A stretch of 64,000 nucleotides of DNA, from contig JAVTVX010000017.1 in the NCBI GenBank assembly GCA_033439265.1, positions 7,276,001 through 7,340,000 on the forward strand, written 5' to 3'. The notes beneath the pieces are model-generated. The model was not told the origin of the DNA and ran no database searches. It saw nothing but the letters and a program-made list of their open reading frames with translations. This DNA comes from Dillenia suffruticosa (Eukaryota; Streptophyta; Magnoliopsida; Dilleniales; Dilleniaceae). Positions 14,478-35,167 of this stretch are shown here, one piece after another; the first letter of the stretch is position 1; every line of letters starts with the position of its first letter. Both the position numbers and the translations under genes were made by a program.

Positions 14478-14485
14478 TATAAATA
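14478..14485 (+). promoter_or_regulatory. TATA box of the ERF gene
   Basis: TATAAATA about 220 bases upstream of the chosen ATG (14702). No better TATA element lies closer, so a leader of about 190 bases is implied. Confidence 0.55.
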
Positions 14486-14701
14486 ATTTGCAGAATTGTT
14501 ACAAGCTTAGAAGGGTTGGCAAAGCAGAGGGAGAGAGGACAAGATGAAACTGTTGTATTGGCGTCCACATATCTGAATCAATCCAAACCCGTTTATATAC
14601 CCGATTTTAATTTCACATCAAGCTCAAAAGGGTTGATAGGAAACCTCATATATAAATCTGGGTTAGTCTTATTTTCTCAAAATTTTCAACTCAATAGGTA
14701 C

Positions 14702-16901
14702 ATGATCTTGCTCAACGTGGCGAATCCACGAGAAACAGATGAATACGTCAGATTTCCGTCTTCCGGAGGTGGCGGAGAAGATGAGAGAGAAGGGGCGTCC
14801 AAGCAGGCAGCGGAGGAAGTGAATAGAGAGATGTTAATTATGGGGCAGAGTAGAGAGAGAGAGATGAATGCTATGGTAAGGGCTTTGACTCGCGTGGTTT
14901 CGAGTAATAGACTTGGTGAGTCGGTCTATAGCACTGAATCCGGAACGGTGTCTTCTTATGGGGTTTCATCGCCGTCTTCATCGTCAGGGTCGTGGATTGG
15001 ACAGAAGAGAGGAAGAGAAGAGGAAATTACTGTTGGTGGTGGTAGTCAATTTGGTGAATCATCTGTTTGGAGATCAGTTGACAGAAGTTTTGGTGATTTT
15101 AGAGCCTCTAATCCACGTGGAGAGTCCTCTTCTGGTGCAACAGGTATTCTCTCCCTCTCTCTCTGTCTCTATCTCTAAGAAGAATTATCAGCTTTCTTTA
15201 TTCTTCTTTCTTTCCTTCTTTCTTTCTTATGGTTACCTTTTCTAATCTGAATTTCTTCAATTTCAATTCATTTAAGAAGGTGGTTGTGTTGTTTTCTCGT
15301 TCACTCCTTTGAAATTAGTCATCTTGTTTTTTTCTTATTTTTTGGCTATAATTTGTGGTTATATATTATATCTTCAAGGTTTTCACAACTTGTATTCAAA
15401 CATTATCAAGTTCAAAATGAGCGTTCATTTACCTTCTTCTTCTTCTTCTTCTTTTTTTTTTTATTTTTTTTTTCTAACTCTCTATTCTTGATTGATCTTT
15501 ATCAGAAAACAAGATTTCTAACATTTTATTAGTTTACCATTATCATTCTATATTGTAACTCTTTTGAATTTATAAATACATCCTTGCAAGTTTTTGATTA
15601 CATGGTGATAAACGTTAAATCCACTTCAATAATTTGTTTTTTAAAAAATATAGTTTCATGCATACATTCTGTTAATCTCTCCTTCCTCCTCCAGATATAA
15701 GGTTTCTTGTACCAAAAATTATGGTTCAATGCCCGAAAAATAAAAGGCATCAAAGAAGAAATAAATGGATTGTTATGTAAAGTCCATTTATTTCTCTTTC
15801 TCCCCTTTTCTTCTTTTGAATGATCTTCGTATTGTCTTGAAAGTATTCCTCCATTCTTCTCCAATGATCCTGTCCTTTTCATATTTTTCCTCTCTTGGGG
15901 GTTACATTATAGCATCAATTCATTATATTTTTATTCCGAATTCCATTTATTTATGAGGTCGTGGCAACTGATATTTGCATGTAATGAACAGTGCCCTACT
16001 AAACTATGTAATCTAGAAATCTGTGGTCCCATTTAATTAAAAATCATTTCATGATTTCATAAATCATAATTATCTAAATAAATTAAAAAATAGTTTATAA
16101 AAATTTTCATCATACGTATCTCTAACTCCATTGATTCATGTGACAGCAGCAACGACAACCACCATAGTAGCACCAACAACAGCAATACCGCCATCGACAA
16201 CCACAACAACAGAGTCCTCTGTTTCTTCATACGACGAAACCGGAGGAGAGAGAAGAAGAAGATACAGAGGAGTGAGACAGAGACCTTGGGGAAAATGGGC
16301 AGCTGAAATTCGAGATCCACACAAAGCAGCGCGAGTTTGGCTAGGCACATTCGACACAGCCGAAGCTGCCGCGAGAGCATACGATGCAGCTGCTTTAAGA
16401 TTCAGAGGTAACAGAGCAAAGCTAAATTTTCCTGAAAACGCTCGACTCGTCACACCAATCTCGAGTTCTCCGGCGAACCAGTCGGCCATTTCCGATTCTC
16501 CGGCAACCCTTTTGCCGGCTCCGCCGTCCACGGCTGAGTTCTTCCAATCTCCGGCGTTTCAGCCGCTACAGGGGAGTGAAGTTGCCAGAGACTATTGGCA
16601 GTATTCGCAGCTTCTTCAGAGTGATTTTCAATTCCAACAACAACCAACGAATTTGTTAGAGCAGATGTTTTATTCTTCGTCGTTGCGTTTACCAGATTCG
16701 TCAACGTCCTCATCGGCATTGCAATCTTCTTCTTCATTTGCTTCCTCTGTTCCAGCGCAGACTTCCTCTACACATCCTCTGTTATTTTCTGATCCACATC
16801 TTGGTGTTTTCCGACAGCAGGAGAATCAGGATCAGGGTAGTAGTCCGGGTTTTCCGGCGTCATGGTCCGGTTCTAGTCATTACCCTTCCACTTCTAGTTA
16901 A
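14702..16901 (+). CDS. AP2/ERF transcription factor, ABR1/ERF110 type
   Basis: Nuclear ethylene-response-factor transcription factor expected to bind GCC-box (AGCCGCC) promoters in stress and hormone signalling. Exon 1 is 14702-15143, the intron 15144-16146 (GT-AG), exon 2 16147-16901; the spliced protein is 398 residues. It starts [11 protein letters not shown]. The open frame extends upstream to 14516 but has no earlier ATG. A single AP2 domain spans about residues 187-244 ([19 protein letters not shown], then [18 protein letters not shown]). The Ala in WAAEIRD and the Asp in GTFDTAE mark the ERF rather than the DREB class, and the [15 protein letters not shown] core with PENARL after it is like ABR1/ERF110-113. 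An acidic, Ser-rich N-terminus and a Gln/Ser-rich C-terminus flank it. It stands alone, with no neighbouring gene within 14 kb on either side. Class is certain; the exact orthologue is not. Confidence 0.93.
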
Positions 16902-28118: not shown

Positions 28119-30952
28119 TCCAAAAGTAAGATGATCTTTCTGTTGAGTTATAATTTACTGACATAGTAAAATGATCTAAATTAAGGAGTCGGGGCATAAA
28201 CAAACTAGGAAAATCCGTTGAAACAATCTTTTTTCATGCTGAGCTTTAACCAAATTTAAGCCCTTTTATTATTTGACTTCCCCAATTACACTAAAACAAA
28301 ACTAGGAAAAAAGAGTCCAATCAAATCTGGTATTTGACATATTTATATTTAATTATATTTTCAGTCAAAGAAATGCATGGAAGAAGATTAAAATCCGTTG
28401 GTGGACACAGAGTTAGGGGCCCAGAGAAACTAGTGTAATTATCAATTTTATTTACATTAAAACTAACCATCAGGTTAGAAAAGGTCCGATTTATTGAAAA
28501 TAAAAAAAAAAAAAAAATCTGAAATTGAACAATTATCTTCAAAATTAAAGAAAATTGTCCAATATAATTTTCCAAATTTATTAATATTAACTTAGTCAAA
28601 GATTTAATCTCTTGCTAGCTGACAAAAAAAATAGTGTTATCAAACGAGCCATCTCTTCGACTTTTGCCGGGTCACACCAAATCACTAACAGTTTACAAGT
28701 TTTATTCTCATTGTGTTCGTGTTGAAGACGCAACGCTAGGCCAAAAGCCCAGTACGGATTCACATAAGGTTTTCTCTTGACACACACAAACGTCATAAGT
28801 TAAATGTAGAAACCCAATTCATGCCAAGACTCAAATAAATCATTTTACTTTTGAATGGCCAAATTGTGAGACAATTTTTAGAAGGGCAAATTTTTATCAG
28901 ATCATAAATAACTTAGGGAGCTAATAATCTCTCTGGATGAATAGAATAGTTGCTAAATCATTTTTGTTGGCATTATGCCTAACCAAAGTTTAATAAGACT
29001 AGAACGGTACAAAGAAACAAAAGGAGCAAACAGTCCAAGGTTTTATGCTTTCGAATAAAGTCTCAGACATCCAAGGAAGGATAAAAGCAGCACAAGCCCT
29101 CGAGCCTGGCGAAGACGAAAGCTCTTAGGCGGCCACTGCGAATGTTTTTGAGAAACAAGCCTTCTAAGATATCATCACAGACTGACAAAGAAACACCTTC
29201 CAAAACACAAGACCAAATAAGAAAAGGAATAGACCCGTTAACACATTTTAAGCAATTATCTATGCAATTGGACAGCTCAAAAATTAGTACCGGATGAAAA
29301 GCTATGAAATACCAAAAATAAGGGAAAGGGTATGTGCAAATTTTGAGTATTCAAAGTTGGTCTCAGACATCCAAGGAAGGAAAACCCTTCTAAGATATCG
29401 TCGTGGATCCAAATCATAGAGACGGACCCATTTCACATTGTATTACGACAAATGCAGCAGATCAGGGGCTAGGGATTGGGGCATCCAAAGGGAAAAAGGG
29501 ACTGATGATTTGAGGGGAGAGGTGGGATCATGGTGTAGTGTGGCCCCATACATATAGAGCCAACAAAAGAAGCAGAGGAATTAGTGTTAGGGTTTCAGGC
29601 CTCCCCGCGTCCTTCCCCTGCGGAGATTATTTTGCCGCCTGGCGTCTAGAAGTTTCGAAATGATTGTGGGCTGGTGGTAGAATGCTGTAAAATACATGGA
29701 TATCCAATCAAAAGCTGCCACGTGTCATGAATTTGGTGCAAATTATGAGAAAATATTATCTATTATTATATGATTTATGATAACATTATGACGTCAATTA
29801 ATGGACAAATTTCTCAATATATTCGCCCATACTGGTACGGAAGTATCAGGTAAGAAGTATTTGTTAATTCAAATAAAAAGAAAAAATATATATAAAAATG
29901 TATCTGATCGAAAATAAATAGCCCCTGAAACATTAAAAAATACAAAGGCCCCCATCAAGTCTTCTGAAAATCATAATTTTAATTATTTCACCATGGAGTT
30001 TGTTAAAATTTAGCATTAAAGTCAAGACGATGGCATTAGACATGGTCACAATTCCGAACTGCTGGTTTCAATTTTAGAATCGATGATTCCCAATTCTTAA
30101 TTTAGAAGAATGGCAACACAAATTTAAAAGCAGTTCCGATTCTGATTTAGAATCGCTGGTTTTGGTTCATATTCTAGAACCTTAACGGTAAAAACTAAAA
30201 TATAAAAATAAATGTCAACACTTTCTTTTTAAAAATATATATAAAAAAAAATATGAGTAATTAATGACAAAATAAATTTCATTAGAAATTTATCGAATCT
30301 TTTTTATTGACAAATCTTTTTATTCAATTCATGAGTAAGCATTTAAAACTATTTTACAGTAACGTATAGAGGTCGAGTTATTTATATGTAATAATTTTTT
30401 ATGATAAATATTTATTATCTCCATTAAATTTATAAAATAATTTATTAAATTAGTTTTTTAATATAAAACTTCTATACAGTTTCATAACTTAATTTTAGTA
30501 ACTATATTATATTCAATATTAATTTAAATAGAAAAATTTTTATTTTTATTTACAAACTAATAATAAGAGTTTTTTTAAATTATTTTTAATTTTAATATGA
30601 CTTATTTTTTAGTCAAAAATTAAAAGATATATGTTTTAAAAAAAAATGGATTGAATCGAGGGTTTTTCATGGTTTGAATCAGCGGTTCAAAATGAAAATC
30701 AACAATTTTTTGCTAGTGTCAAATTGGAAGAGGGGCACACTGTACAAATGAAGGGCTAAAAGTAATGAATTCCAGCATGATGCACAATGTAAAATGCAAT
30801 TTCGAATTGCATCATCAGATCTTTTTTTTTCCTATCATCTCTTCTCCTTTTTCTGTGTTCCCTGTTACCACCATACTTAATAGGTCAAATTTGAGTTCAC
30901 CATAAACTGAACAAGGTCATGCATGATGCAAACTCAATACTTCAACGACATA
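28119..30952. other. Gene-free stretch downstream of the SET-domain gene
   Basis: AT-rich. It contains a short diverged duplication: GTCTCAGACATCCAAGGAAGG at 29060-29080 and again at 29360-29380, each followed by CCTTCTAAGATATC, the second copy lacking about 80 bases between the two words. A perfect CCACGTGTCA motif lies near 29720. No gene recognised. If the SET-domain gene were transcribed, its 3' UTR would fall just left of 30953. Confidence 0.4.
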
Positions 30953-33900
30953 TCAGAACCGCAAGCTTTTCCAGCAGCACATAAAAGCCAGGTAAGATAA
31001 GAAAAATGAATACCTGTCGTCATCATCTTCCCATAGATAAGTATCCTCCCGTTAAAGGTGTTGCATGAGGTGGAAAATTTTATACATTAGAACCGCAATA
31101 GCCAAAGAATGTAAAATCACAAATGATTACTCAACCATTCAGGCAGGATTAATCAGTGCAACAACAATGCAATCATTAAATATGACAATAAATATTAAAA
31201 ACATGCAAAAAAAATAAGACATTAGATAACAAATATGTTGAATATAATTGATCACAAAAGAACTACATTCTCAGAACCTGCTGCAAACATCTCAAGAGAA
31301 TAAACAAACATCAAACAAGGATTTAGTTTACAACGTATAAGGGCAGTATCTTGATGAAGCTGTAGCCAAAAAATTCAGACTCAAAATCTTAAGCTAATAA
31401 CATTTGCCTCAGGCAGTCAATTTTTAGTCTGACAAATATGGTTATTATCATCGCTGAACAGCCAACAAGCCATCATGGTTCATGTTTCAGGGTTACAATC
31501 AAATATTGATTCCGTGAACTAATACAAACATAAACAACAATTTTGATCTCAATCCCAAATTTTGGGATCGGTCGAACTAATACAGACATCTGTTTCATAA
31601 ATGATATTTGAACCTACGAGGAGAGTGGATCTAAGATTTATGCCATGATTCTACTCAGCTTTTCAGCTCACCTGGAAACCACAAGACTTTGCCCCAAGAA
31701 AACCAGAACGGCTGGCAGCCCCACACGGGCAGCGCACTCTGGTACCCCCATGCCATTCAAAATTGTAATCATATCCTAGTTCAGTTCCAATAGGTATATC
31801 ATACTTTGCAAATATGCCAACCCTAACTTCTCCTAAAATGTCCCACTTCCTCGTCTCACAATTAGGTTGGCTGCAAACTACTCAAACTTAATCAGTCCAG
31901 CTAAAAAATAATCATCGCGGTCTTAAATATTCACTCAACATATCAGAGCATCTCTTGAATGTATTCATAACTAGCGTAAGGCATCTTACCATGAATGATC
32001 TATAAACGTGGCAAAGCTTCCCTTCATGGTTGCATCAATTGATTCATGAGAATCAAGAGAAATAATATATGCATCCTTAAGACCTGAATTGCCACAAAGA
32101 GAGGGTTAAAGCAATTTATACAAAACATTAATGAAACAACTAACAAATATACATATAAGACTACCTTGAGTTTCATAAGATTGGGACCCACTCTTTGCTT
32201 CTTTCCAAGATATTAATTCTCCACAGTACTCGATAATAAAACTTCCAGCCTAAATTGGATTAGATCAAACAAATTACAATGAATTGTCATCAACAAACAG
32301 AAAATATTGATCCATCCTTCACTATCTGCCATTAAAAAGTTACATGCCAAGTCAGAGGCTAGATGCTTGTTGAGACCCATTATCAGCACAATTCTCAGTC
32401 AGCAAGCATTATCAAGATTATCGATACAAATACATATTTGATTAATAGAAACACAGATCCAGTAGAACGATTGGTGCACTGGCCACTCAATTGTGAGTGG
32501 ACAAAGAACTTACCCTTGATCAATGGGCTTTTTAAATAACTGATCACAATTCCCTTGCTTGATCCTTTTAAAAGCACCAGGCACGTCAAAAAGTTCATGC
32601 TGCCACTGATTAGAACTCATTTGTTGGTTAAGATTACATCTAAAGTGGGAGACTGACATTTGCATTTTAAACATGAAAATAGTGCGACCAAGGATATCAC
32701 TATCATCACCAAGGAAGCCATTAAGCACTTTATGAACTTCAAGCAAGTCACCAAGCCAAAAATGAGCAACAAATTCAATCTAACCAATATCCTCCTAGTA
32801 GACACATGCAAAATATAGCATGTACTTGTAATGAACATATTTATCATTAAAAACATTTATGTGAGCCATTGATTTCTGATTTTGAATTCTGGGACTCCTT
32901 GTTTCCTTTCTTGGTGACAAGGAAGGGCTATGCCCTTGGGGAAGGGGGGATAGATGTGAACCCCAATATAATGGCTGGCGCATTGTGTCAACTACCACAC
33001 CAAAAGGCTTGTGGCAAATTAAAAAAAAAAGGAATAAAATGGAGGGGTTCATGATGTGATGTTAACTTTGCAGTCCACAAAGACTAATTGCCTTCATATT
33101 CTCATCAGCCAGGGCACCCCAACCTTGACCCTCAGTTTTGAGCAACTTTATTCTGGCATAATCACATTTCTGAAACCTCAATGAGGGGGGGGGGGGCACT
33201 ATAAGCTCTTAGGTAGAACTTAACTTCATCATGTCTAGCGTTCAATTACAAAGATGGCTTAGGAAGTTGGTCCTTTTTTTTTCCACGAAAAGAAGTATCT
33301 TAGAAATCCTGTGAGTTGTTGTTTTATTCTTACTTATAACACATTCATATGTTTGTTATCTTAATCTATGCAATTGGTGATGCAAGTTTGATTTCACTTC
33401 CTGTATAGGATTTGTACCAATATTTTCCTAATGACAATGGTTGGGAGAAAAAAGAAGAAATATTTAAGCAAAGAGAGATTAGATCTTGGTTCAATAGAAC
33501 TCAAACAATGGGATTTTCGCAAAACAGTCAAAGAAAAAACAAAGCATCTTTAAATACCAAACTTCATTAAACACAGCCAAATCTCTACAAAAGAGCATCT
33601 GTGTTTAACCTTTGTATAATTATTCCCATATGCTTGCAGACTTGCAACAAAGGTCATCATCGCCGTAGAATCAATGTTGGCCAATAACCAACACTAGATA
33701 GGTGTCACCGGTCTGAGTGGCGGATAGAACACTTAATGACAAAAAGCCAACAGAAAATGGATGTAGATACAAAATGTATTATGTTTTGGACATGCCTCAA
33801 ATGCAAGAGCAAGCACATTCAAGTATATAAAAGCAGTTATAAAATTTTTATAATACCATATCATTGGGGAGAAAAACCAAATTTCTGAATGAAATAAATA

Positions 33901-35167
33901 TGAGTACAGAAAAGAACTTGTACTTTGCAATGAGAGGCTTAGACTTGAACATAATGAATGGGAATGATGAGAATGAAACTTACTTCCGGTACAAGAACTC
34001 ATTTTGATGTATCTCTATGAATGGAGGCAGTCCTTCCATTGGTATTCCCTGCATAAACACATGCACCTCATTACCACTCATGACAAGAATTATACCACAC
34101 AGATACAAGAAAAATGGATATGTTTTCAGATGAACAACATATAATCCAGGAAGCTAAGGTAATATAAGTATGAAGCAAATTAATAAAGAAACTATGGTCA
34201 AGCAAAATCAGATAATGAGACATGTAGACGGGTACACAGCAGATTTCCAGAACAAATAACACTTGAAGGAACACACTTGTATATACCGTAAAGTATTAGT
34301 AGCATCATTAGTAACCAAAAAGCCTGTAAGGTGGGCTGGTTTATATATACATGCATATAAGGCGTTTACCTGTTTTCTCACTTCTAATGTTCAAATTTTG
34401 CCTGGACTTTGGCTTAGTGGCTCAAATAACATTTGAGATTCTCATGCCTCATATAGCAACATTGCTTCATTGCCACTTTAATATTCATTACTTTTCGAGA
34501 CTTCCAAATTTGAGAATTGTAGCATTGGTATTATCCTACATTTTCCATTGGATATTCTGAAAATTTTCAATTCTTTTTTTTTTTTTTTTTTTTTTTTTTC
34601 CAGTAGGATGCTTTTGATATATCAATGTATTTTTGCTTGCAACGGGAAGGGGGACAAGACTCAATCCAAGGCCTTTATTGTGATAAGGATTTCAAGCAAA
34701 GCTCTTGGTCTGGAATGCTACTTCTATAGATTAGCTTTAACTAACAACAATGCAATTGTTCCAAACTGCAGTTTTCTTTTCTAGTAAAGACTTGCAATAC
34801 AAAGACAAAAATGTTAATATGAAAGTATCTTAGGAAGATAATTTTTTTAGCCTTCCCAAGAAATTTAACTTACGAAAAACAAGAGGTCATCTCAATCAAA
34901 CATTTGCATTTTCTAGAGAAGTGAACATTGAAAGCACGTATTATGATAAGTAGCAATATAAAAAAAATTACTAAAAACCAAAACAGGGTTCTATTTCCCC
35001 TTTCAACAAGTTCAAAACCTAATTTCTACAAAAGAGAGAGAGAGGTTCGCAAAGACAAACTTCAATAACGAATATAAGTAGTTTCTCTATCAACCCACTC
35101 TATACCATCATTGACGCACGCATCAATCAAGAAGTTGAGAAAGAGATTCGGATACCTGGGAATTCAT
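30953..35167 (-). pseudogene. Degenerate ASHH1 (SDG26)-like SET-domain histone methyltransferase
   Basis: Seven minus-strand exons were found by reading the translation: 35156-35167, 33984-34048, 33092-33176, 32165-32249, 31990-32083, 31672-31870 and 30953-31045. Phases agree throughout and give 210 residues. ASHH1-class proteins are nuclear H3K36 methyltransferases acting in flowering control. Homology is clear: GLPPFIEIHQNEFLYRK, FQKCDYARIKLLKTEGQGWG, EYCGELISWKEAK, LKDAYIISLDSHESIDAT, CETRKW, EVRVGIFAK, YDYNFEWHGG. Damage: no exon for the Cys-rich AWS domain was found between exons 2 and 3, and the flanking phases join in frame; the invariant NHSC is DHSC, with ATF for ARF before it; the third post-SET Cys is Arg (CPCGAASRS); the protein stops soon after WEDDDDRYS, about half the family length. 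The 32165-33092 intron needs a GC donor, and the last acceptor is weak. Probably a decaying paralogue, though a transcribed AWS-less form cannot be excluded. Confidence 0.8.

Follow-up and report, generated by a model that had tools for sequence, protein, structure and literature searches.

The stretch of Dillenia suffruticosa DNA analyzed here (the window), 64,000 nucleotides long, belongs to contig C17 of a genome that totals 596 Mb and is assembled as 37 contigs. Seven exons on its minus strand, between 35167 and 30953, join in consistent phase across the junctions proposed in an earlier sequence-only reading, giving a single open frame of 210 codons whose stop ends at 30953. Their positions, together with the lesions recognized by comparison with a second copy of the gene on contig C20, are as follows.

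35156..35167, minus strand: exon 1 (MNSQ), with an intact GT donor; C20 counterpart at 7884641-7884630
33984..34048, minus strand: exon 2 (GIPMEGLPPFIEIHQNEFLYR plus AA), 64 of 65 nucleotides identical to C20
33620..33622, minus strand: breakpoint at which about 1372 nucleotides of C20 (7883163-7881792) are absent
33179..33180, minus strand: destroyed acceptor of the exon following the AWS exon (C20 has AG, this copy TG), with the frame restored by the nearest AG, 2 nucleotides downstream
33092..33176, minus strand: exon 3 as bounded in the sequence-only reading; the homologous exon starts at 33178
33090..33091, minus strand: donor after exon 3, GT in C20 and GC here
32165..32249, minus strand: exon 4, N-terminal part of SET (AGSFIIEYCGELISWKEAK), from the translation and comparison with C20
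31990..32083, minus strand: exon 5 (FATFIDHS-), with R108T and N111D relative to C20
31672..31870, minus strand: exon 6, C-terminal part of SET and post-SET, with C168R in the post-SET Cys cluster
31049..31050, minus strand: destroyed exon 7 acceptor (AG in C20, GG here); an AG 3 nucleotides downstream keeps the frame with the loss of one Glu
30953..31048, minus strand: remnant of exon 7 (EDTYLWEDDDDR), continuing into the former intron until the stop, from comparison with C20
29819..30709, minus strand: 0.9-kb segment in the place of 3.6 kb of C20, about three quarters of it matching a dispersed repeat

The predicted product matches the Pfam SET domain (PF00856) at 3.3e-20 with a score of 72.9, the cut-off being 22.4 bits, and has no Pfam match to the AWS domain (PF17907). 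A comparison with PDB returned 118 distinct sequences at E<=0.001, and among the best 60 of these 118, which were the matches listed, the closest relatives are NSD2 (1.3e-40) and SETD2 (1.5e-38). The SET core reads FATFIDHSC, the codon of its Cys being split across exons 5 and 6, and the post-SET region reads CPCGAASRSG; the DHSC in place of NHSC and the Arg in place of the third post-SET Cys, both noticed in the sequence-only reading, are thus present as written. An additional open stretch (32513-32779, minus strand) lies in the intron that separates exons 3 and 4; it is similar to C20 in two pieces of 78% and 92% amino-acid identity, and the part of it searched gave no Pfam match. This may be an old gene fragment residing in an ancestral intron.

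A whole-genome search with the window protein yielded 43 matches, of which 5 fall in the window locus, 5 in the C20 locus and 33 elsewhere. The last show only 30-56% identity, against 86% amino-acid identity for C20 in window exon 6, and whole-genome searches with the window protein and with the AWS exon and exons 9 and 10 of C20 found no third close copy. The gene model on C20 (7884641-7872909) comprises 10 exons with canonical splice sites and encodes 505 amino acids, with Pfam matches to AWS (3.5e-14) and SET (8.3e-25). The earlier reading had suggested looking for an intact ASHH1 paralogue in the genome, and this intact-looking gene in a collinear block provides one. The assignment of the pair to ASHH1 is putative and follows the Arabidopsis protein and that same reading. 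The architecture of the C20 partner, AWS and SET lacking CW, PHD or Tudor domains, is compatible with the description of the ASHH1 subfamily. An excerpt of PMC11508336 characterizes ASH1-group proteins by AWS plus SET, with ASHH1 lacking the CW, PHD or Tudor domain of other branches. Measured against this group, the window product retains SET and lacks AWS, the NHSC motif with its preceding Arg (TFIDHSC here) and a complete post-SET Cys cluster. In the C20 gene, about 3.2 kb of intron (about 7880175-7876990), located between the exon ending in HS- and the next SET exon, is absent from the window copy; from the translation read, its broken frames look like a LINE-type reverse transcriptase.

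The similarity extends well beyond the gene itself, with a fetched 40-kb stretch of C20 collinear with 14-46 kb of the window at 71-90% identity; 25 of 29 alignment rows are in order and the other 4 are local repeats. An open frame at 14483-15175 and an ERF/AP2-like gene at 16131-16901, the latter named by reading its sequence, likewise have collinear C20 partners, with dS values to them of 0.16 and 0.26 respectively. When the whole-genome SET searches were read by eye, other SET loci also appeared to fall in contig pairs (C16/C34, C2/C5, C12/C27, C29/C37, C1/C11 and others on C17/C20). The window and C20 genes are two ASHH1-type copies from one old, large-scale duplication, and the pairing of several other SET loci suggests that it was probably a whole-genome one. 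With its introns kept, a collinear duplicate elsewhere and lesions that are disabling by comparison with the intact-looking C20 gene, the window locus has the structural features of an unprocessed (duplicated) pseudogene.

One of the lesions is the loss of the AWS exon. In C20 this exon is 157 nucleotides long (7882628-7882472) and lies within the 1.37-kb segment missing from the window copy. The sequence-only reading had held that it was absent between 33984 and 33176, and this is borne out by the lack of a Pfam AWS match, by the alignment gap and by a tblastn search of the whole window with the C20 AWS exon, which gave nothing significant (best E 0.76). We considered whether the exon might be hidden in the intron at 33177-33983 and rejected this, as the C20 AWS peptide has no match in that interval and a gap appears in the alignment. 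Throughout the genome, at E<=1, the exon has no close match except C20 itself, all others being distant. As 157 is not a multiple of three, a shifted frame would be expected from loss of the exon by itself; the reading frame is retained because the acceptor of the next exon has also been destroyed and the nearest AG lies 2 nucleotides downstream. The in-frame joining of exons 2 and 3 reported earlier is thus real, its cause being this acceptor shift and not a lost exon of a length divisible by three. We take the rescue to be a matter of chance (about one in three) rather than of selection on the frame.

Altogether three splice dinucleotides have changed relative to C20, namely the acceptor after AWS, the donor of exon 3 and the acceptor of exon 7. 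Plants can use GC donors, and the GT to GC change need not by itself be disabling. The bounds given earlier for exon 3 are real, its two altered splice sites (acceptor TG, donor GC) having been overlooked, and the start of exon 7 has to be moved from 31045 to the homologous position 31048, where the acceptor AG is GG at 31050-31049. Further downstream, the last two C20 exons (9 and 10), within about 3.6 kb, are lost, in agreement with the earlier observation that the C-terminal half is gone; the C-terminal part of C20 gave nothing significant by tblastn against the whole window (best E 3.7). Relocation of this half elsewhere in the genome was rejected, exons 9-10 of C20 having no close non-C20 match at E<=1. 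The repeat now in this region is AT-rich (30037-30698) and 69-85% identical to pieces at no fewer than 39 other genome places, a lower bound set by the scoring of 40 out of 185 candidates. A search of segment 29819-30709 for terminal inverted repeats found only short AT-rich pairs, and the segment is left unclassified.

The window product differs from C20 by 16 amino-acid changes, including R108T, N111D and C168R, which strike residues common to C20, NSD2 and SETD2. Thus, beyond the Asn change already pointed out, the Arg of the RFINHSC motif has been lost (Thr108), and the post-SET CPCGAASRSG stands against CLCGAASCSG in C20, this Cys being present also in NSD2 and SETD2. The polarity of the changes was judged against alignments with human NSD2 and SETD2. 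The two human proteins have the same residue at 73 aligned positions; C20 shares it at 51 of these and the window copy at 46. Among the 51 positions shared by NSD2, SETD2 and C20 the window differs at five (75, 108, 111, 125 and 168), and the reverse case does not occur; at four of the 73 (38, 43, 47 and 124) the two copies differ and neither agrees with the human pair, making these uninformative. The motif could be read at 24 SET loci in the genome, and the position of the NHSC Asn is occupied by Asn in 21 of them, by Ser in 2 (the C1/C11 pair) and by Asp in the window alone. The pattern used in this survey saw only nine residues at this position, other-frame and other-strand matches were dropped by eye, and at another 7 SET places that were fetched the motif was not readable. 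Counting from construct ends, we take SETD2 R1625 to correspond to Thr108 of the window product. Excerpts of two papers state that the R1625C substitution in SETD2 abolishes activity (PMC8294582) and that it also destabilises the protein (PMC9116022). Given that loss of activity, a working methyltransferase would be very unlikely to be made from the window copy.

The two copies can be compared over 191 codons (573 nucleotides), in which 25 differences, 16 nonsynonymous and 9 synonymous, give a dS of 0.081, a dN of 0.036 and a dN/dS of 0.44, the ratio between paralogues that the sequence-only reading had proposed computing. Intron sites differ at 513 of 3517 (14.6%), with 46 gaps, and the exons have diverged far less (16 of 456 nonsynonymous sites; p 1.4e-13). 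No stop, indel or frameshift is seen in the shared coding sequence. Had it evolved neutrally since the duplication, 3.75 indels would be expected and the probability of none is 0.024, rising to 0.15-0.33 if 30-50% of the time was neutral; in simulations of neutral substitution no stop arose in 0.37-0.64 of trials with 10-24 substitutions and in 0.16 with 46. In view of these probabilities we judged the open frame alone too weak as proof of constraint. The absence of indels and stops together with exons much closer than introns does argue for constraint on the window copy during part of its life, and it was probably retained for some period before being lost. The dS of the shared exons also lies below the intron divergence of 0.162 (p 0.043, raw counts) and below the values of 0.114, 0.161 and 0.256 for three neighbouring pairs of open frames or exons, which were chosen by the analyst and are not annotated genes; beyond small numbers, this low dS is unexplained.

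Alternatively, the copy might have been retained as a non-catalytic SET protein of 210 amino acids, spliced with the shifted acceptors and the GC donor, that would serve intact ASHH1 as a partner or act as a decoy. Its frame is open throughout and survives both the AWS loss, with its +2 acceptor shift, and the +3 shift at exon 7, and ASHH1 self-interaction is reported, according to the title of a paper cited in PMC4657036. Against this, three splice dinucleotides are changed, 5 of the 51 conserved positions including the post-SET Cys are lost, exon 7 runs into a former intron with the last two exons gone, and keeping the frame by chance is fairly probable (by the analyst's estimate about 1 in 3 per event). 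We accordingly regard retention of this kind as improbable, and a shade more so its specific form, in which the shortened copy would be spliced in frame into a putative SET protein without AWS or catalytic activity that binds and dampens intact ASHH1. Less probable again is a non-coding function, such as regulation of the C20 copy by RNA from a putative expressed pseudogene, even with exon sequence staying near that of C20 (25 differences in 573 nucleotides). That a normal gene was altered by errors of assembly or sequencing is just as remote: the introns differ from C20 by 14.6%, and the lesions are numerous and varied (a deletion, a repeat and scattered substitutions), so that the window gene is not a misassembled C20 copy.

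Based on these observations we propose with high confidence that the window gene and the intact-looking C20 gene form a homeologous pair of ASHH1 (H3K36-methyltransferase type) genes, of which the window copy is the one in decay. The collinearity, the lesions and the intact-looking partner agree with the decaying duplicate that had been preferred from the outset, and an ordinary broken duplicate is the most likely identity of the window gene. A large-scale, probably whole-genome, duplication would have created the pair on C17 and C20, after which the C17 copy probably remained constrained for some of its history before its function was lost. An intron-to-intron deletion would then have removed the AWS exon, the C-terminal exons would have been lost and their site is now occupied by a repeat, and mutations would have accumulated at three splice sites and at residues of SET and post-SET; the order of these losses is our conjecture, and it is likely that no functional protein is made from the copy. 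The locus provides a well-resolved case of one duplicated chromatin-regulator gene decaying while its partner stays intact: exons were deleted, splice sites lost and catalytic residues substituted, and the 3' end disappeared next to a repeat. It also counsels caution in annotation, as the in-phase open frame here depends on broken splice sites; beyond this the finding opens no new question.

Compared with ASHH1/SDG26, an H3K36 methyltransferase of the plant ASH1 group for which C20 stands in here, the window copy shares seven exons, the N-terminal GIPMEGLPPFIEIHQNEFLYR and the SET core, and differs in lacking the AWS and C-terminal exons, in R108T, N111D and C168R, and in its three splice changes. 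The human SETD2 R1625C mutant has lost the same Arg of the RF(M/I)NHSC motif that is Thr in the window; unlike the window copy, the enzyme described in PMC8294582 and PMC9116022 is complete apart from this point mutation, which comes from cancer. A further parallel is Brassica rapa after its genome triplication, for which an excerpt of PMC4657036 describes SDG duplicates losing critical domains, as SET-domain duplicates have here, calls four genes pseudogenes and considers nonfunctionalization to be possibly on-going. The two of those four that are named in the excerpt differ in being SUVH and SUVR genes, and expression was tested there. Loss of SDG duplicates after polyploidy has thus already been described in Brassica rapa, and the window gene is a case of the same kind.
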